Shown here piece after piece: positions 30,401 to 37,895 of a stretch of DNA of 38,269 nucleotides. How positions within the stretch are numbered: position 1 is the stretch's first letter; every line of letters begins with the position of its first letter. The notes below the pieces were generated by a model, which was not told the origin of the DNA, ran no database searches, and saw only the letters and a list, made by a program, of their open reading frames with translations. Made by a program: the position numbers and the translations under genes. This DNA is from a virus: the IMG/VR virus record IMGVR_UViG_3300036790_000824, positions 1 through 38,269 of that record. The stretch is one strand, 5' to 3'.

Positions 30401-31249
30401 ATGGCAACCGCTCGACCGTTGAACGCGCAATTGGAGGCTTTTCCGAACCGTAAGAAGCCGCCACAATCGGAACGCTGGTGGAAGAAGTTCATTCCCGCGT
30501 CCCAGGCTATCGAGGTATTACCTACGGCCATTCAGAATATCGAAGCGGCCACGCCGAACGAGCTGCTCCGCATCGCGGTATCGCAGAAAGCCAACGTCGA
30601 AGAATTAAATCGCTTGATGGATTTGCAGGAGCGTTGGGAGAAAAACGAAGCCAAGAAAGCCTACGTCGTGGCGATGAACGCTTTCAAAGCCAACCCGCCG
30701 GAGATCACCAAAAACGAGCTTGCCAAATTTACCAGTGTGAAAAATGGCAAAGAAATTGAGATCGAATGGTGGTATTCCACGCTCGATCACATTCACGGAA
30801 TCATCCTGGCGGAGATGAGCAAGCATGGCATCTCGCATCGCTGGGTCACCGAGCAACCGAATACCGAAACCATCCGCGTGACCTGCATTCTCACCCATAA
30901 GCTCGGCCACAGTGAGCAGACCACCCTGCAAGGCCCGATTGACCATTCGGGAAGTAAGAACGCCATCCAAGCGATCGGCTCAAGCGCAAAGTACCTCGAA
31001 CGCTATACGTTGATGGCGGCAACCGGGCTCGCCGACGGAACTCCCGATGTGGACGGAAGCGCATCCGCAGCCAATCAACCCTCCGCTAGCGTGAATGACA
31101 CGATGAAGAAGATACGCGCTGCCCGGAACGCGGCGGAACTTCGGGAAATCTTCACCACCGCCTATACGCAAGCGGAAAACGCCAAAGATAACCAAGCGAA
31201 AGCCACCTTGATTGCCGCCAAGGATGCCAGACTGCGAGAGCTACGATGA
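30401..31249 (+). CDS. erf: ERF-family single-strand annealing protein
   Basis: 282 aa (P22 Erf 204). The ERF domain covers about 85-215: Y-V-V-A-M-N-A-F-K, then Y-S-T-L-D-H-I-H-G, and S-K-N-A-I-Q-A-I-G-S-S-A-K-Y-L-E-R-Y followed by G-L-A-D-G. It anneals complementary single strands and, with an exonuclease, circularises or concatenates phage DNA. The first 80 residues are an extra helical region, and the tail after 225 is a helical acidic/basic segment. GGAGG lies about 10 nt before the ATG. It overlaps the exonuclease gene by 4 nt, making a recombination module. Confidence 0.88.
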   Translation: MATARPLNAQLEAFPNRKKPPQSERWWKKFIPASQAIEVLPTAIQNIEAATPNELLRIAVSQKANVEELNRLMDLQERWEKNEAKKAYVVAMNAFKANPPEITKNELAKFTSVKNGKEIEIEWWYSTLDHIHGIILAEMSKHGISHRWVTEQPNTETIRVTCILTHKLGHSEQTTLQGPIDHSGSKNAIQAIGSSAKYLERYTLMAATGLADGTPDVDGSASAANQPSASVNDTMKKIRAARNAAELREIFTTAYTQAENAKDNQAKATLIAAKDARLRELR

Positions 31250-31944
31250 GCGCCGCGCCTCTCTATGTCGAATGCGAACACGGCAGCCCGGAGTGGAAGG
31301 AAGCCCGGCGCGGATTAGTCACTGCTTCGCGCTGTGCCGACGTGCTGGCCATGCTAAAGAAAGGCGGGGAGGGAGCGCCGCGCCGAAACTACCGCATGGA
31401 GCTGGCCATTGAAATTCTCACAGGGCACTCCACGAAGCATTACGTTTCGCCGGAGATGCAGTGGGGACTCGACCAGGAACAATTCGCCCGTGCAGCCTAC
31501 GAAGTCAAACAGAACACGCTGGTAGAAACCTGCGGCTTCTATGTACATCCGCTGGTGAATCGTTTTGGCGCGTCTCCCGATGGACTGGTGGGCAGCGAAG
31601 GCCTCACGCAATTCAAATGTCCTTCGACTTCCACCCATCTTGCATGGATCCTCGAAGGCCAACTGCCTCTCGACCACGCCCCGCAAATGCTGGCGGAAAT
31701 CGCTTGCACCGGGCGTGCGTGGAATGATTTCGTCAGCTTCGACCCGCGACTGCCGAAACATTTGCAACTCTTTATCCGGCGAATGGAGCGCCGTGATCAC
31801 GAGCCACTCATCGCGCAACTGGAAAGCGAAGTGCAGCGGTTCAATGACGAATTGGACGCAATGCTGGCCGAACTTCCGCAGATCGAAGGACAGCCAATCA
31901 TTGCAGCCATGGACTATACGGACCCGGACGAATTGATCGTATGA
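31246..31944 (+). CDS. YqaJ-type phage exonuclease with an altered catalytic motif
   Basis: 232 aa. The fold elements of the YqaJ/lambda-exonuclease family are present: W-K-E-A-R-R-G-L-V-T-A-S, Glu78 in G-L-D-Q-E-Q-F-A-R-A-A-Y, and F-G-A-S-P-D112-G-L-V-G. The next strand normally carries E-x-K, but here it reads L-T-Q122-F-K124-C-P (codon CAA at 31609-31611); Q147 lies in A-P-Q-M-L-A. An active enzyme would resect DNA ends for the ERF protein. Loss of the Glu may reduce or abolish cleavage unless another acidic residue replaces it. ATGA overlaps join it to both neighbours. Confidence 0.82.
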   Translation: MSAAPLYVECEHGSPEWKEARRGLVTASRCADVLAMLKKGGEGAPRRNYRMELAIEILTGHSTKHYVSPEMQWGLDQEQFARAAYEVKQNTLVETCGFYVHPLVNRFGASPDGLVGSEGLTQFKCPSTSTHLAWILEGQLPLDHAPQMLAEIACTGRAWNDFVSFDPRLPKHLQLFIRRMERRDHEPLIAQLESEVQRFNDELDAMLAELPQIEGQPIIAAMDYTDPDELIV

Positions 31945-32156
31945 CCCACGCCTGCGAACAACATCAGGACTGTACGCACCCGGCAGTGAAAGAATGCTGC
32001 CGGTGCCAGATCGGACTCTGCTCCGCGCATCTGGTGGAATGCCTGGATTGTCACCAGGTCTTTTGCCGGGAGTGCGCGAGAGAACACCAGAGGGCAGTTA
32101 GCCCCGATGAGAGGATGGGAGAGCCAGAGCCCGCTAGCCGAATGGGGAAACCATGA
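31941..32156 (+). CDS. B-box-like zinc finger protein
   Basis: 71 aa. A dense Cys/His array (C-E-Q-H-x-x-C, C-C-R-C, C-S-A-H, C-L-D-C, C-R-E-C-A-R-E-H) fits a two-zinc B-box or treble-clef fold in the first 50 residues; the tail is polar. It is coupled to the exonuclease gene (ATGA) and may be a cofactor of the recombination module. A T-rich stretch (CTTTTTTTAA) follows it before the next gene. Confidence 0.6.
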   Translation: MTHACEQHQDCTHPAVKECCRCQIGLCSAHLVECLDCHQVFCRECAREHQRAVSPDERMGEPEPASRMGKP

Positions 32157-32189
32157 CCCTCTGTACCTCCCCCTTTTTTAACTTTAATT

Positions 32190-32372
32190 ATGGCCAACAT
32201 AAACATCAGCGACGATATTTACCGGGAGTTGCAGACCATCATTAAACTCCATGCCCACGCGAAATCCTGCAAGAAAATCGGCAACGCGGCGGAAGCGAAA
32301 ACTTACCAGCAAAAAGCCGACAAGCTCGCCGTCATGTGGTTCCGCAAAATTCGGTTCCACAGTAAGTCCTGA
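32190..32372 (+). CDS. 60-aa helical protein
   Basis: M-A-N-I-N-I-S-D-D-I-Y opens like a ribbon-helix-helix strand, followed by helices (E-L-Q-T-I-I-K-L-H-A-H-A-K) and a basic end. It has no visible Shine-Dalgarno; the leader is T/A-rich. Its stop shares one base with the next start (TGATG). The function is unknown; a small DNA-binding role is possible. Confidence 0.55.
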   Translation: MANINISDDIYRELQTIIKLHAHAKSCKKIGNAAEAKTYQQKADKLAVMWFRKIRFHSKS

Positions 32373-32725
32373 TGCGCCGCCCCATCTTCCGCCAGCCCTA
32401 CCGCTGGCAACCCAAACCTAAACCGTCATCACTTCGCTATGAACTCATTCTCGACGGCGCGGTGCGAGTGTATCCCGGCGGAAGGGAAGTCTGTCAGGAT
32501 TCTCCGGCGGGATGGCGGGAGTACAAACGAAGGGTTGAGGTCATGGTGCAGCGTCAGAACTTCCGTTGCTCTCTCTGTGGGAAGCGCATCAGCGTATCCA
32601 CGGCCACTTTTGAGCATCAGCGAAGACGCGGCATGGGCGCGGCGTGGCGGGACGACCGAATCACGATTGACGGGAAGGATTGGAACTCGGCGGCACACTG
32701 GGTATGCAATGGGGAGAGAGGCTAG
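32372..32725 (+). CDS. HNH-family nuclease-like protein
   Basis: 117 aa. A basic N-terminus (R-R-P-I-F-R-Q-P-Y-R-W) leads to the core: R-Q-N-F-R-C-S-L-C-G-K, then A-T-F-E-H-Q-R-R-R-G-M-G and D-W-N-S-A-A-H-W-V-C-N-G. One CxxC knuckle is present and the second is reduced to a single Cys, so the zinc site may be incomplete. The conserved His in E-H-Q and N-G are where HNH catalytic residues lie. It ends the plus-strand operon, its last 4 bp overlapping the convergent operon end. Confidence 0.65.
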   Translation: MRRPIFRQPYRWQPKPKPSSLRYELILDGAVRVYPGGREVCQDSPAGWREYKRRVEVMVQRQNFRCSLCGKRISVSTATFEHQRRRGMGAAWRDDRITIDGKDWNSAAHWVCNGERG

Positions 32726-32970
32726 TGCGTAGTTTCATCATGGTTCGCTATTACTGCGCCGCGAATTCCGCAAACTTCTTCTAAGCCATCCATCACGAAG
32801 CGCAGAACCGCATAGGCTTCCAACGGGCCTATAGTCTTCGCCCGCAGCAAATCAATAATTTCGTGGGATACGCGCTCGAATTTCTCTCGCAGCTCCGGAG
32901 TTATTTCGATTTTAACGCCCCTAATATCCTGCTCTTTCAATGGGGCGGCAGCTTGATTGTTGATTTTCAC
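32722..32970 (-). CDS. Hypothetical helical protein (82 aa)
   Basis: The GTG start at 32970 overlaps the stop upstream (GTGA). A short beta strand (V-K-I-E-I-T-P-E-L) and two helices (E-K-F-E-R-V-S-H-E-I-I-D-L-L; A-Y-A-V-L-R-F-V-M-D-G-L-E-E-V) make a compact domain. Last gene of the 16-gene overlapping array. The family is unknown. Confidence 0.6.
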   Translation of the reverse strand: MKINNQAAAPLKEQDIRGVKIEITPELREKFERVSHEIIDLLRAKTIGPLEAYAVLRFVMDGLEEVCGIRGAVIANHDETTH

Positions 32971-33179
32971 TTCTTCTCCGGCACCTGGTACGGAGTGTAA
33001 TGCGGGTTGCCCTCGTTCAAGCGGTTCAGCAAATCCATCACCGCATAGGGAGCTAAGAGCGTTGTTTCGCCACTGAATCCTCGGCCGGCCGCTTCGCCCA
33101 AGACGAAGACCAGACGTTCATAATCCACGCGGCTCATGGTGAGCACTATTTTGCCGTCGGGAGTTTCGGAGTAGCTCAA
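32967..33179 (-). CDS. Hypothetical protein (70 aa)
   Basis: TTG start at 33179 in a TTGA overlap. The product reads I-V-L-T-M-S-R-V-D-Y-E-R-L-V-F-V-L-G-E-A and contains a helix (V-M-D-L-L-N-R-L-N) with a polar Tyr/Pro-rich end. No domain is recognised. Confidence 0.6.
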   Translation of the reverse strand: MSYSETPDGKIVLTMSRVDYERLVFVLGEAAGRGFSGETTLLAPYAVMDLLNRLNEGNPHYTPYQVPEKK

Positions 33180-33412
33180 TTGCCCACTCTTAGCTTGGCC
33201 CGAAAATCTTCTTCGTTCCAGCTCCGTGCGCCTTCTTCGCAGCGCGGATTGTCATTGCAGTACTTCACATTCCGCGTCGCTATTCCCGGCAATAAACTCT
33301 TGGGCCCGATGTCCACTTTGCGAACGCTTATTTTCGCATCGGGCCGCTCGGCTCCGCAGATTTGGCAGCGCCAGGTAAAAGTCGAGGGATCGAAACTCAC
33401 TTGTTTGCTCAC
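33176..33412 (-). CDS. Zinc-ribbon protein (78 aa)
   Basis: GTG 33412 is chosen over the GTG at 33418, because it forms the GTGA overlap used throughout this operon and has AAAGGA at the right distance. C-Q-I-C-G-A-E-R near residue 16 and C-N-D-N-P-R-C near 52 form a four-cysteine site; the tail is acidic. The function is unknown. Confidence 0.6.
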   Translation of the reverse strand: MSKQVSFDPSTFTWRCQICGAERPDAKISVRKVDIGPKSLLPGIATRNVKYCNDNPRCEEGARSWNEEDFRAKLRVGN

Positions 33413-33618
33413 AGCCACATTCCTTTCTTCGCTTCTTCGCGCCAGACCTGCTTGCGCGTTTCATCCACTGCATCTTCCGCTTCCGTCCACCAGTCGTCAG
33501 CCTCTCTCCGGCCAGCTTCGTAGCCTGCCTTGTAGCCTAAATCGCGGAACCAGCAGAGCCAGAAGACCTCGCAGATGAGAACCAGAATCCAGAAGAAGAT
33601 GTATCCGAGGATCGTCAC
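33409..33618 (-). CDS. Single-span membrane protein with charged tail
   Basis: 69 aa from GTG 33618 (GTGA overlap, GGAGG 7 nt upstream). A hydrophobic, Phe/Trp-rich helix (2-24) is followed by a Gly/Ala/Tyr motif (G-Y-K-A-G-Y-E-A-G-R-R) and an acidic coiled segment. It probably sits in the inner membrane with the tail in the cytoplasm. Confidence 0.6.
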   Translation of the reverse strand: MTILGYIFFWILVLICEVFWLCWFRDLGYKAGYEAGRREADDWWTEAEDAVDETRKQVWREEAKKGMWL

Positions 33619-33998
33619 GCCGAAGCCTCCGCCTCGCTTGATTCTGTCCAATGCCAGATTCCTTGATGGCCTTTGGCTAAAACCGGCATTTCCAGCCTTC
33701 TTCGCATCGTCAGCAAAATCCCGAAGCGGCCAGCCTCGAAATTTCCATATTCATCCGGGGGCGCGAGTTCATGGGGTAATCGCACGCAACCAACTACATC
33801 CACGATGCACAAAATAGCGCCCAGCGGAACCGTCAATGGGTCATAGCCGAATTGTTCGCAAGCAAATTTATTCACGGTTTTCGCCGCATGAATTGCCAAT
33901 GGGCCGCGAAACAGCATTTCCCATCCCCGCGTTTCTATTTTCTTGCGCCCGTCATGAATCAGCGAAGCCCACGGCTGATGCAAACTCAAAGCTCTCAC
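33615..33998 (-). CDS. ASCH-domain protein
   Basis: 127 aa from GTG 33998 (GTGA overlap, GGAGG 8 nt upstream). M-R-A-L-S-L-H-Q-P-W-A-S-L-I, K-K-I-E-T-R-G-W, R-G-P-L-A-I-H-A-A-K and a later G-A-I-L-C-I-V-D-V-V strand are the ASCH signature, a PUA-like beta barrel predicted to bind RNA or modified nucleotides. Some ASCH proteins act as nucleases or nucleoside hydrolases; which applies here is unknown. As an early phage gene it may act on host RNA or DNA modification. Confidence 0.8.
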   Translation of the reverse strand: MRALSLHQPWASLIHDGRKKIETRGWEMLFRGPLAIHAAKTVNKFACEQFGYDPLTVPLGAILCIVDVVGCVRLPHELAPPDEYGNFEAGRFGILLTMRRRLEMPVLAKGHQGIWHWTESSEAEASA

Positions 33999-34366
33999 GC
34001 CCTGACCTCCATCCTGCATCCGCACTTCCGCCCGCCGCCCATCTCCATCTCGCACTCTCCTTGGTGAACGTGACCGCAACCGTGGCAGGTGTTTTCCCAG
34101 TTGCGATTCTGCGGGGCCGGAGGAAGCCCGTTTCCGTTCGAGGTTACTTTCAGCCCTGTACTTCTTTCCGCCGAAACTGAGACTTCCGTGCTTGCCGAAA
34201 GATCGCCCAACTCCTTCAACCAGCGGACAACATCAATGATTTCCGAAAGATGGTCGCCGTTCTGCAAGCGTGCGGAGTACAGATTTTCCGCGATGATGTA
34301 GAAGACTGCCCGCGTGTTATTCGGCGGAAGTTTGCGGATCATCAACATCTGGTCGGTGGCGTTCAA
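33995..34366 (-). CDS. Hypothetical protein with Cys/His tail (123 aa)
   Basis: The start is probably TTG 34366 (TTGA overlap); ATG 34348 is an alternative. A helical domain (A-V-F-Y-I-I-A-E-N-L-Y-S-A-R; L-S-E-I-I-D-V-V-R-W-L-K-E-L) precedes a polar linker and a C-terminal metal site (C-H-G-C-G-H-V-H, then C-x-x-x and C-G-C). The family is unknown. Confidence 0.55.
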   Translation of the reverse strand: MNATDQMLMIRKLPPNNTRAVFYIIAENLYSARLQNGDHLSEIIDVVRWLKELGDLSASTEVSVSAERSTGLKVTSNGNGLPPAPQNRNWENTCHGCGHVHQGECEMEMGGGRKCGCRMEVRA

Positions 34367-34452
34367 TGCTGCACCGCCGGAAGTACGATATAAGCAACCC
34401 AAAGTCCCAACAAAATTCCCATCGCGAAGATTGCGGCTAAACGGGCGATCAT
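34363..34452 (-). CDS. 29-aa membrane peptide
   Basis: ATG 34452 overlaps the stop upstream (ATGA), and the stop overlaps the next start (TTGA). The whole product is one membrane helix (A-A-I-F-A-M-G-I-L-L-G-L-W-V-A-Y-I-V-L) with a short basic head. Overlaps on both sides are the main evidence that it is translated. Confidence 0.55.
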   Translation of the reverse strand: MIARLAAIFAMGILLGLWVAYIVLPAVQH

Positions 34453-34709
34453 GCCTTGTTTTTCTCCCGTTCGCGGATTTCCTCTTTCACCCGGTCGCTG
34501 GGTTCGTACTCGGTGTACTTCGCGCGCATGAACATGACCAGCGGGCGAATCAGTAGATAGTTTTCTTCGTCGGCACGCAAGGCTGCATTCGCCAGTGATT
34601 GCACAAAGCCGCCGCCGCGTTGACTTGCCGCCGAGAGCCATTCCAGTAATTCGGGATCGTCGTTTTGCGCGATGAGAAATACTGCATTTGAGCCATCGTG
34701 ACCAGTCAT
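34449..34709 (-). CDS. Hypothetical helical protein (86 aa)
   Basis: ATG 34709 in an ATGA overlap. Helices at about 18-48 (P-E-L-L-E-W-L-S-A-A-S) and a basic/acidic end (V-K-E-E-I-R-E-R-E-K). No family is recognised. Confidence 0.6.
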   Translation of the reverse strand: MTGHDGSNAVFLIAQNDDPELLEWLSAASQRGGGFVQSLANAALRADEENYLLIRPLVMFMRAKYTEYEPSDRVKEEIREREKNKA

Positions 34710-34999
34710 GCGACCTCCTGAAATAAACCTTGCTGCTCTCCGCGCCGTGCATCGCTGTCGGGATGCTTCCGTTTCCAGCGGTCGTACTCAAGCTGGTGTT
34801 CGGGGCAGAGATGCTTTCCCGGTGCGACTTCTTTGGCGTGCTTGGCGCAGATGGGCTTGTCGCAGGTGCCGGATTTTCTCGCCGATATTTTCCAGTCGCA
34901 GAGAAATGTTCCCCGGTGGCCGCACTCGCAGTACTTCGCAGTCACCCGCACGCCGCAGACGATTACGTCCTGCCCGTTGATGTTGATGTGCTCACACAC
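34706..34999 (-). CDS. Zinc-finger protein (97 aa)
   Basis: GTG 34999, with AGGAG upstream; this junction overlaps by 8 nt rather than 4. C-E-H near the start and C-E-C-G-H-R, C-D-W, C-D-K-P-I-C-A-K-H and C-P-E-H across residues 20-70 could bind two zincs in a treble-clef or HIT-type finger. The end G-L-F-Q resembles a beta-clamp-like or partner-binding peptide (Q-G-L-F), also seen at the end of the 60-aa protein at 35225. Confidence 0.65.
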   Translation of the reverse strand: MCEHININGQDVIVCGVRVTAKYCECGHRGTFLCDWKISARKSGTCDKPICAKHAKEVAPGKHLCPEHQLEYDRWKRKHPDSDARRGEQQGLFQEVA

Positions 35000-35228
35000 G
35001 CGGCAAACTCCTTGCCTCTACCGGAACAAATAGCATTCCCTCAGCGTAAATACGTCGTTCGCATTGAAGTGAAGTTCTGAATCCCAATAGCTTCACGCGC
35101 TCCAAATGCCCGTTCGCATCGCCAGCCATACTCGGCTGCACTAGTGGAAAACCGCTGTATTCGGTCACAGTAAAGCCAGCGGCCCGCAATTCCGCCGAAA
35201 TTTTGGCCGTCCATTCACTCAATGTCAC
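34992..35228 (-). CDS. Hypothetical protein (78 aa)
   Basis: GTG 35228 (GTGA overlap). A helix (W-T-A-K-I-S-A-E-L-R-A-A-G-F) and beta strands (V-T-E-Y-S-G-F-P-L-V-Q-P; G-M-L-F-V-P-V-E-A) form a small alpha/beta protein. The family is unknown. Confidence 0.6.
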   Translation of the reverse strand: MTLSEWTAKISAELRAAGFTVTEYSGFPLVQPSMAGDANGHLERVKLLGFRTSLQCERRIYAEGMLFVPVEARSLPRV

Positions 35229-35407
35229 GAGAAAAGTCCTCCCTGCTTCTCCACTGGCTTCGCTTGGCCCTGCCGGGAATTCAAATTGCGGATGCACTCC
35301 AGGCACGGCCCTTTGCGAACGCCGTCCACCCGGTGCTGAGTTTTCTTTCCGCACTTCGAGCAGTAGCCGGAGACGGAGACGGTGTTGCGGGTGTAGTGCT
35401 CGGTCAC
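35225..35407 (-). CDS. Zinc-ribbon protein (60 aa)
   Basis: GTG 35407 (GTGA overlap). C-S-K-C-G-K-K-T and C-L-E-C-I-R-N form a classical four-cysteine ribbon, followed by a flexible tail ending Q-G-G-L-F-S. This ending is similar to sliding-clamp binding peptides, so an interaction with the host replisome is conceivable but unproven. Confidence 0.65.
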   Translation of the reverse strand: MTEHYTRNTVSVSGYCSKCGKKTQHRVDGVRKGPCLECIRNLNSRQGQAKPVEKQGGLFS

Positions 35408-35622
35408 AAACTTTCTCCGAAGCCTTGCATGAGTGGCTTATGAGTTGTTTTCACGCGATCCGCATTGATGCGCTTGAAATCCTCGAACATTTCGCGGCCT
35501 TCAAATTGTTCGGCAATTCCGCCCAGCGCGTAATCCCATCCTGGTCGCGAGAGCGCGAGTTCGGCCAGTGCCAACAAAATCATCTGTCGTTCGCCTTCCT
35601 CGAAAACTTGCTGCACCATCAT
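35404..35622 (-). CDS. Hypothetical helical protein (72 aa)
   Basis: ATG 35622 (ATGA overlap). Mostly helical: E-R-Q-M-I-L-L-A-L-A-E-L-A-L, then R-P-G-W-D-Y-A-L-G-G-I-A-E and F-E-D-F-K-R-I. Similar short helical proteins occur in many phages; the role is unknown. Confidence 0.6.
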   Translation of the reverse strand: MMVQQVFEEGERQMILLALAELALSRPGWDYALGGIAEQFEGREMFEDFKRINADRVKTTHKPLMQGFGESL

Positions 35623-35828
35623 GCGACCTTCTTTCCCTTCGCCGGAGGATTGGGATTCACCCACACTCGCCAACTCTCCGGAAGTTTGCGGGCAGGGACC
35701 CGCTCGTAATTCGCCCACGTCCGTGCGGCGTAGAAAATGAAAATCATGGGCGTCAATCCAGTGATGAACGAGACCTTCACGATGGCCGCGGCGAAGAATG
35801 CAAGATTCAGGAGTTCGGGTTTCATCAT
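35619..35828 (-). CDS. Small membrane protein (69 aa)
   Basis: ATG 35828 (ATGA overlap). Two hydrophobic runs (about 6-20 and 24-36; L-L-N-L-A-F-F-A-A-A-I-V and G-L-T-P-M-I-F-I-F-Y) form a hairpin or one long membrane segment, followed by a Pro-rich basic tail. The family is unknown. Confidence 0.6.
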   Translation of the reverse strand: MMKPELLNLAFFAAAIVKVSFITGLTPMIFIFYAARTWANYERVPARKLPESWRVWVNPNPPAKGKKVA

Positions 35829-36043
35829 CGCGTCCCTTTTTTGCCGAGCAGTAAATCGGCGGCCAAAGCTAAATCCTTCAACGCATCCATCACGCATCGC
35901 AGCGTGTAATCATCATCCGGAGATCGTCCGCGTCCCGGCGGGGTAGATTCTTCCCGAATATTCAACTCGAAAACTGCGCGATTGATCGCCGTTTGTGCGT
36001 TTACGAGATCCTGTCCGCAGCGATCGGTGCGAGTTTGCTTCAC
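35825..36043 (-). CDS. Hypothetical helical protein (72 aa)
   Basis: GTG 36043 (GTGA overlap). N-terminal and C-terminal helices (L-V-N-A-Q-T-A-I-N-R-A-V-F-E-L; C-V-M-D-A-L-K-D-L-A-L-A-A-D-L-L-L) flank a polar G-R-G-R-S loop. Its end resembles that of the 82-aa protein at 32722 (C/F-V-M-D-x-L), so the two may be related. Confidence 0.55.
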   Translation of the reverse strand: MKQTRTDRCGQDLVNAQTAINRAVFELNIREESTPPGRGRSPDDDYTLRCVMDALKDLALAADLLLGKKGTR

Positions 36044-36243
36044 GCCGCCTCCCCAATCGTCCTCGTGAACGGCAAAAACTTCTCTTCCCCGCACCCCATA
36101 CAGACTCCCAAGCGTCCCGACTCAATCTCAAATATTGCAATCAAGAGCTGCAATCCTCCGCAGTTCACGCACCAGCGCATGTCCTGGTAGAGCCAGGGAT
36201 CGAGGGTGATGGCCGGGGATTCGGGAGTGGAGAGGGAAGTCAT
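36040..36243 (-). CDS. Zinc-ribbon protein (67 aa)
   Basis: ATG 36243 (ATGA overlap with the ATPase). C-V-N-C-G-G near 25 and C-M-G-C-G-E-E near 48 form a four-cysteine ribbon with beta strands between. Directly behind the ATPase gene, it could be an accessory subunit. The family is unknown. Confidence 0.65.
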   Translation of the reverse strand: MTSLSTPESPAITLDPWLYQDMRWCVNCGGLQLLIAIFEIESGRLGVCMGCGEEKFLPFTRTIGEAA

Positions 36244-37844
36244 GCGACCGTCCGAACCTCTTTGACGTTGACCTTCATGGTTGGCACCGCCTGATAAGTT
36301 GCCTGTCCGACAACTCTCAGAAATCCCATCTCGGCAAGTTTCGCCAAGGGCAAATTCAACGGAGTGGGCCGTCCGGTTTGCGCCATCCAGCCACGCGCGC
36401 GAAATTCTTCGTTTAGATTGGCGATCTTCATGGGGCTATCGAAGAAGCCATCGGAAATCAATAAAGCAATCCGGCCTTGGCTGTCGTCGTCGTTCATCTC
36501 GATCACAAAGCGCCGCACGGTAACATTCAGTTCCGGCTTTTTCACGTCGAGATTGAGAACAACTTCTTGACCGTCCGCGATTGGAACAGCCTGCTTATCG
36601 GCCACGTAGGGCGGACGCGAAGAGGGAACTGTGCGGTTTTGCATGGCGGCGTCCTTCTCCAATTGCTCAATCCGCGCTTCCAGCCGCTGGATAGTAGCCA
36701 CATTGTCCCGGATGGTTTCCTGCGCTTCCTGCCATTCCTGTTTGTAGTCCACGTTTTTGTTCTCCTCGCGCCGCGATGGTTGCGGCTGAAATTTCGCAAC
36801 AGCTTCTCGCATGGTTGCTTCCGCGCGCGCCGCATTACGCGGAAAATCCACGGCAATGCCGTGTCCGATGGCCTCTTTCATCCAGCGCGGCAATACATAA
36901 ACTCGCTTGAGCGTTTCGCCGAAGCTCACAAAGAATTCTCCCCGCCGCAAGGTCATCACCTCATCCGCCGGAGGTTTCAACTTCTTCGGCACCGCCATCT
37001 GGGAAAGGGTGTGCTCCACTTCATTGGCCTCGCGCTGCACGCCGAGAATCCACACGCCCACCTGTTTCAGGATTCGCTTGTCCACGCCGCTGATGTCCTG
37101 CGAATCCAGCCACATGAAATTCTGCGCCGCCGCGCCTTTGCGGATCAGCGACTCGCCCGCCACTTTCACCGGAGTGTTGCGGCCCTGCGGTAAAAACTCC
37201 CACGCTTCCGGGATGACCGTGATGACATTGCGCCGCAAATAAACTTCTTCCATCGCGGAGGCAATGGCCAGTGATTGCATCTCGGCGGAGTACTCGCTTA
37301 AATCCATGACGTTCATGCCTGGCTGCAATTCGAGCCGCGTGCCGCGCTGCGACATATCGAGCTTCAACCGCCGCAACTCCGGCATCAGCAATTTGAAATA
37401 CTCACTCAGTTGTAAGTACATCCCGGCGGCGTATCCGGTGGCGGGCTTCGATTTCTTTCCGCCGCCATGCAAAGCGGTTTCCACGTTCGCCGCAACCTGT
37501 TCGAGAGATCGCGCGCCTTGGCAAACGCGAATGATCCACTGGCGTTCGTACTTCATGCGCTCCCGCATCATGGCTTCGAGAATGGATTCCACGAATTGCC
37601 AGTCGGCGCGGTCTTTGAAGTAGGGCGGAATTCTCCTGGCTTCGGCGAATGCGCTCTCCGCTTGCTTGGTGAGAAAGGCCAGCGCGGGACGCGGCGGATC
37701 GCCGGAGCGTGACAGCATGGCTTCGAGCGTCGTAGTTTTTCCGCTGGCCTGAGTCTGGCCGCAGACTACCGTGTGCGCGAAGGGAACATGCACCGCTTTC
37801 CCGGAACCAATTTCATAGCCCAACAAAATTTCGTGTGCGCTCAA
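36240..37844 (-). CDS. HerA-like ATPase with coiled coil and winged helix
   Basis: 534 aa from TTG 37844, which has AAAGGA at the proper distance. GTG 37865 is possible but sits at the foot of a hairpin. Positions here count from GTG. Walker A is G36-Q-T-Q-A-S-G-K43-T-T, one residue longer than the canonical loop. The Walker B strand V-I-T-V-I-P-E220-A-W has Pro in place of Asp. D-S-Q-D-I-S-G (254-260) is the sensor region of the HerA/FtsK class. A coiled coil (375-408) and a C-terminal winged helix (455-525; I-A-L-L-I-S-D-G-F-F) follow. Related proteins exist in environmental viruses. It may translocate DNA or protein; the step is unknown. Confidence 0.75.
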   Translation of the reverse strand: MSAHEILLGYEIGSGKAVHVPFAHTVVCGQTQASGKTTTLEAMLSRSGDPPRPALAFLTKQAESAFAEARRIPPYFKDRADWQFVESILEAMMRERMKYERQWIIRVCQGARSLEQVAANVETALHGGGKKSKPATGYAAGMYLQLSEYFKLLMPELRRLKLDMSQRGTRLELQPGMNVMDLSEYSAEMQSLAIASAMEEVYLRRNVITVIPEAWEFLPQGRNTPVKVAGESLIRKGAAAQNFMWLDSQDISGVDKRILKQVGVWILGVQREANEVEHTLSQMAVPKKLKPPADEVMTLRRGEFFVSFGETLKRVYVLPRWMKEAIGHGIAVDFPRNAARAEATMREAVAKFQPQPSRREENKNVDYKQEWQEAQETIRDNVATIQRLEARIEQLEKDAAMQNRTVPSSRPPYVADKQAVPIADGQEVVLNLDVKKPELNVTVRRFVIEMNDDDSQGRIALLISDGFFDSPMKIANLNEEFRARGWMAQTGRPTPLNLPLAKLAEMGFLRVVGQATYQAVPTMKVNVKEVRTVA

Positions 37845-37866
37845 AAGTTTTCCTTTCCGAACCACA

Positions 37867-37895
37867 GGGCCAGAGTTTCCCCGAAACTCCGGCCC
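37867..37895. promoter_or_regulatory. Stable hairpin upstream of the ATPase gene
   Basis: GGGCC-A-GAGTTT pairs with AAACTC-C-GGCCC around a CCCCG loop, with one A-C mismatch. It lies in the 62-bp gap between the OB-fold-like gene and the ATPase start. No T-run follows on the minus strand, so it looks more like an attenuator or mRNA-stabilising structure than a terminator. Confidence 0.6.

Follow-up and report, generated by a model that had tools for sequence, protein, structure and literature searches.

In prokaryotes, a 4-nt overlap (-4) is by far the commonest gene spacing, followed by -1 and -8, and it is easy to evolve (PMC12548453). Published tests of coupled translation use joints of the NTGA type, in which a stop codon overlaps the next start codon, as their standard substrate (PMC6728339, PMC10666635). 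In E. coli, most of the overlapping joints tested are coupled, and removal of the Shine-Dalgarno sequence lowered reinitiation in four of five gene pairs; in most groups, the majority of overlapping downstream genes have a Shine-Dalgarno sequence in front of them (PMC6728339). Other described systems involve the DnaN sliding clamp, for which the binding consensus is QL(S/D)LF with a position 2 that tolerates substitution (PMC11139829). SocB of Caulobacter and Twort Gp168 both act on DnaN, SocB via the usual motif (PMC9690074, PMC11139829), whereas Gp168 uses the DNA channel and not the motif pocket; the likeness of both to the proteins described below is by description only.

The array described here, which is known from sequence alone, has the same -4 joint as the coupled pairs, with the Shine-Dalgarno sequence inside the upstream gene. 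PMC12548453 gives -1 and -8 as the spacings enriched next after -4; the array has one -8 joint, and -1 joints occur in its relatives. It differs from the tested pairs in its run of 14 of 15 joints and in its exchangeable neighbours. The joint is an ordinary prokaryotic NTGA joint, of a known kind, in an extreme run. What is worth following is the kept order with exchangeable contents, together with the clamp-binding-like QxxLF tails of two small proteins (g6 and g8), which are what is new here. The explanation that we consider the probable one is an accessory operon with coupled NTGA joints, exchangeable genes and clamp-docking tails on g6 and g8.

Layout of the array

The window, meaning the whole stretch of DNA analysed, is a 38,269-base record of a soil phage. 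It has genes for terminase, portal, head, head-closure and DNA-ejection proteins, which point to a podovirus-like phage, and for a 184-aa integrase-type protein. Between 37844 and 32722, minus-strand translation of the window gives 16 consecutive genes, the HerA-fold ATPase first:

36240..37844, minus strand: g1, HerA-fold ATPase, 534 aa, TTG start, Walker A GQTQASGKTT (translation, predicted structure)
36040..36243, minus strand: g2, 67 aa, two CxxC, zinc-type (homologues in L003, L019, L018, L054, L079 and others)
35825..36043, minus strand: g3, 72 aa, function unassigned (single weak match, L148, E 0.003)
35619..35828, minus strand: g4, 69 aa, membrane-type (translation, homologues)
35404..35622, minus strand: g5, 72 aa, function unassigned (caller starts at the second ATG of ATGATG; homologue search empty)
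35225..35407, minus strand: g6, 60 aa, zinc-ribbon-type, C-terminal QGGLFS (translation, alignments)
35231..35245, minus strand: QGGLF of g6, clamp-binding-like motif (motif scan, alignment)
34992..35228, minus strand: g7, 78 aa, orphan (translation; missed by the caller; homologue search empty)
34706..34999, minus strand: g8, 97 aa, Cys/His-rich, C-terminal QQGLFQEVA, start within the 8-nt overlap (translation, alignments, AlphaFold2)
34721..34735, minus strand: QQGLF of g8, clamp-binding-like motif (motif scan, alignment)
34449..34709, minus strand: g9, 86 aa (79% to L018)
34363..34452, minus strand: g10, 29 aa, membrane-type (41-45% in L018 and L019, same joint)
33995..34366, minus strand: g11, 123 aa, Cys cluster at the C-terminus (translation, homologues)
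33615..33998, minus strand: g12, 127 aa, ASCH-domain protein (Pfam PF04266, E 3e-5; phrog_3193, 8e-30)
33409..33618, minus strand: g13, 69 aa, membrane-type (translation, homologues)
33176..33412, minus strand: g14, 78 aa, Cys pairs (72% to L019)
32967..33179, minus strand: g15, 70 aa (translation, homologues)
32722..32970, minus strand: g16, 82 aa, last gene of the array (translation, homologues)
30401..32725, plus strand: facing module of an Erf annealing protein, a YqaJ exonuclease, two small ORFs and an HNH-like protein (profile matches, homologues)

The first-pass annotation had described 14 of 15 joints as 4-nt overlaps and one as an 8-nt overlap, from g1 to 32722, and all frames translate accordingly. 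Five joints are ATGA (preceding g2, g4, g5, g9 and g10), seven are GTGA (g3, g6, g7, g12, g13, g14 and g16) and two are TTGA (g11 and g15). The sole 8-nt overlap is between g7 and g8 (GTGTGTGA). The stop codon is TGA for g1-g15 and TAG for g16. The same annotation also agrees with the translations as to the products: those of g2-g16, that is all but the ATPase, are 29-127 aa long; the zinc proteins, of which it had counted at least four, are five Cys-rich zinc-type products (g2, g6, g8, g11 and g14); its three membrane proteins are g4, g10 and g13, with membrane segments judged by eye; and its ASCH protein is g12. Assignment of g13 as a spanin was dropped, as it rests on a spanin-like phrog match of E 0.01. 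The stops of g16 and of the facing HNH-like gene, both TAG, share a CTAG palindrome at 32722-32725.

The predicted structure of g1 (AlphaFold2, pLDDT 78) has HerA as its best PDB matches (Foldseek E 1e-13, prob 1.00). In predicted fold and Walker A motif, g1 is like the HerA/FtsK-superfamily DNA translocases. It differs from the solved HerA-type structures in its low identity (10-18%) and in an added coiled-coil and C-terminal domain, and from HerA systems in that no NurA partner was noticed among the adjoining genes. Between g1 and a 120-aa upstream gene, a strong hairpin of about 13-14 bp lies at 37856-37895 (minus strand; -29.4 kcal/mol for a 71-nt stretch, z -2.9, no U run). L002, L003 and L007 instead have an ATPase gene whose start overlaps the gene upstream of it.

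Joints and signals for translation

A TGA stop that follows A, G or T automatically includes a start codon. Because the stop supplies this free start codon, NTGA joints are easily over-called, and a gene caller blind to overlaps was therefore built. Its score draws on coding potential, the start codon and the Shine-Dalgarno sequence, and overlaps earn nothing. The caller recovers 15 of the 16 array genes, missing g7. Of the 14 joints that it calls in the array, it places 12 at -4, compared with 3/42 same-strand joints elsewhere in the window (Fisher p 6.5e-8). The -4 run is not an artefact of start choice. Given random relative frames (1/3), 14/15 joints at -4 has p 2e-6; at the rate of the relatives, p is about 0.02-0.04 (0.017 at 0.66; 0.04 at 0.71). 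The length of the run is far beyond chance, but it exceeds the habit of the phage group only mildly.

The first-pass annotation had raised the question of whether the frames are conserved. Homologues with matching frames are present for 13 of the 16 genes (g1, g2, g4, g6 and g8-g16), and their NTGA start often lies at the corresponding place. The weak match of g3 is its only one, and a search of related loci found no homologue of g5 or g7. These three genes have little or no comparative support and are predicted from the open frame, plus a coding score for g3 and g5.

The mean Shine-Dalgarno energy at the joints is -7.97 kcal/mol, compared with -5.64 kcal/mol in synonymous shuffles, 0/300 of which are as low. 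In 14 of the 15 joints the energy is -5 kcal/mol or lower (9.2 expected), and the sequence sits in the terminal part of the gene upstream. Inside the array there are 2 promoters (3.9 expected; sigma-70-like type only) and 14 terminators (12.1 expected). The termination-reinitiation put forward in the first-pass annotation is plausible, given that published tests rely on NTGA joints and that neither sigma-70-like promoters nor terminators are in excess inside the array; the excess Shine-Dalgarno sequence at nearly every joint would also allow direct entry. Coupled translation across the joints is likely on these signals. The array would be read as a single transcript, with the ATPase gene first. 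Each upstream stop overlaps the next start, and the last part of the preceding gene usually provides a Shine-Dalgarno sequence, so that a terminating ribosome could begin the next gene immediately; some ribosomes probably also enter directly.

The Shine-Dalgarno excess also suits plain compaction, in which -4 is the easiest short joint, each gene is independently initiated and the run length has no further meaning. NTGA is the commonest prokaryotic spacing and easily evolved (PMC12548453), and outside the arrays in related phages -4 is also the most frequent joint (283/773). Under compaction, the rarity of -4 outside the array in the window and the coupling of most overlapping joints in E. coli (PMC6728339) are the difficulties, and we lean against it while regarding it as possible. 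With many natural joints between varying neighbours, the array is suited to measuring coupling by joint rather than by gene.

Order and contents in related contigs

Synteny in related phages, another point raised at first pass, extends to about 30 contigs, which share the array order facing HNH-YqaJ-Erf with varying contents. Insertions and losses are numerous, and g2, g4, g6, g8, g9, g10, g11, g13 and g15 stand in largely the same order. Among 168 close joints inside the arrays of the relatives, 119 are at -4 (71%), 16 at -1 and 11 at -8. According to the caller, the longest -4 run is 1, 3 and 5 in three deposited phages and up to 9 in related loci. The window is the far end of a habit of its phage group.

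From phage to phage, a given gene is followed by different genes, yet keeps a -4 or -8 joint. For example, g6 has at least 10 different downstream genes, as distinguished by called length. In L054, L061, L079, L088 and L091, g6 and g8 are directly adjacent with an 8-nt overlap, and in L019 a homologous GTG start would give g6 the same overlap. The 8-nt joint is conserved; in the window g7 sits between g6 and g8, and the overlap is with g7. The order is common to the phages and the contents are not, probably because the joints would allow small genes to be gained, lost or swapped with translation preserved.

Published gene pairs differ widely in coupling efficiency. The fixed ratios suggested at first pass are not supported, because neighbours change between phages. 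A fixed-ratio complex, meaning a multiprotein machine around the HerA ATPase with its stoichiometry determined by the overlaps, would be in line with the enrichment, in E. coli and H. volcanii, of short overlaps among heteromeric complex subunits (PMC10666635). The changing neighbours, the several genes that are orphan or missing in relatives, and the many stretches, of limited length, that keep g6, g8, g11 and g13 with no ATPase homologue make such a complex highly improbable.

A nucleotide search with the array and a protein search with the ATPase gave no match in deposited phages, and an ATPase profile search of species genomes gave no relative. In deposited phages g6 was not found, and g8 is present in two Erythrobacter phages only. 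Of the compact host-interaction island described at first pass, the compactness stands: the set is mostly accessory, and about 30 contigs share its order while differing in cargo. Host interaction is plausible, and becomes more specific for g6 and g8 through their clamp-binding-like tails.

C-terminal tails of g6 and g8

Both g6 and g8 are zinc-type proteins with the tail at the C-terminus, behind a folded domain, as in the clamp motif. In the g6 alignment, 23 of 29 rows have an exact QxxLF near the end, and five of the other six end NPxLF. Q, L and F are kept; the linker, in length and sequence, and the middle residues vary. The motif QxxLF, QLSLL or QMSLL is present in 21 of 77 distinct g8 homologues, including 17 of the 18 best-scoring ones, in which linkers diverge; most of the distant homologues, often of about 80 aa, are without it. 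The g8 family has at least 80 loci and is named by no Pfam or NCBIfam model. In the AlphaFold2 model of g8 (pLDDT 86) the tail is helical, at pLDDT about 67-70, and a fold search against the PDB gave no significant match. The single exception among the 18 close g8 homologues (L088 269-835) extends to 188 aa and is without the usual tail, maybe through a frameshift or sequencing error.

Compared with the clamp motif Q-aliphatic-x-[L/M]-[F/L] (PMC11139829), the tails have Q at position 1, L at position 4 and F or L at position 5, with F in both window tails. Position 3 is often S, D or E (E or D in 12 of 23 g6 motifs; S in 12 of 17 g8 motifs). Unlike in the canonical motif, the usual residue at position 2 is G, Q, R or P; the window tails have G and Q there (QGGLF, QQGLF), and an aliphatic residue occurs in some relatives only (QLSLL, QMSLL, QLALF, QIDLF, QMGLF). 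Because of this non-aliphatic residue, the tails are termed clamp-binding-like and not canonical, and G or Q at this position predicts weaker binding.

Y-family polymerases are established clamp clients. Those of the Acidobacteriaceae, a family picked via one exonuclease relative in a Granulicella assembly and possibly not that of the phage host, carry the identical pentapeptides QPALF, QPELF, QGSLF and QMSLL, and also QLDLL. These matches and the QLSLL and QMSLL variants fit the clamp better than a non-clamp role for the tails, such as docking on the phage exonuclease or a degradation signal. Such a role would agree with the non-canonical position 2 of most members and with the many g8 tails that run on to ...EAA or ...EVA. 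Unrelated array genes also end in Ala, as expected at GCA-TGA joints, from which the C-terminal Ala follows; the degron reading of the ...EAA tails is less likely for this reason, and a non-clamp role as a whole is rather unlikely. Binding of g6 and g8 to DnaN is a hypothesis of moderate strength. The tails would most likely dock on the host DnaN clamp, and would thereby either recruit a phage function to the replication fork or displace host clients. If they do bind DnaN, small phage proteins that Pfam and NCBIfam leave unnamed would gain a testable function, and phages would be seen to exploit the motif pocket through several small domains unrelated to one another.

When the motif is defined as QxxLF or Q[LM]xL[LF] in the last 15 residues, it is present in 52 of 2324 called proteins compared with 3.5 expected by shuffling; about 36 of the 52 are g6 or g8 homologues and the loci were partly fetched via these two genes, so that the fairer figure is the remaining 16 or so. 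Ten motif-bearing proteins were compared with Pfam: three are DNA methyltransferases, one is an FtsK-gamma/integrase protein, one is double-zinc-ribbon-like, and the rest are weak or unnamed. A tentative extension, which we hold with less than even confidence, is an exchangeable rack in which unrelated zinc-type domains (g6, g8 and a third family) with clamp tails would attach changing functions to the replication clamp of the host, NTGA being the connector through which genes are exchanged.

The methyltransferases and the FtsK-gamma/integrase protein with a C-terminal QxxLF are at L093 5679-7142, L073 2370-3311, L029 10387-11043 and L093 2327-3514. The third small family, double-zinc-ribbon-like and QxxLF-ended, occurs in the same arrays (L081 3800-4051, L055 3879-4121). 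A candidate g8 tail at L003 3471-3533 was rejected, as it belongs to this third family, which has further members at L056 3658-3900 and L003 3408-3542.
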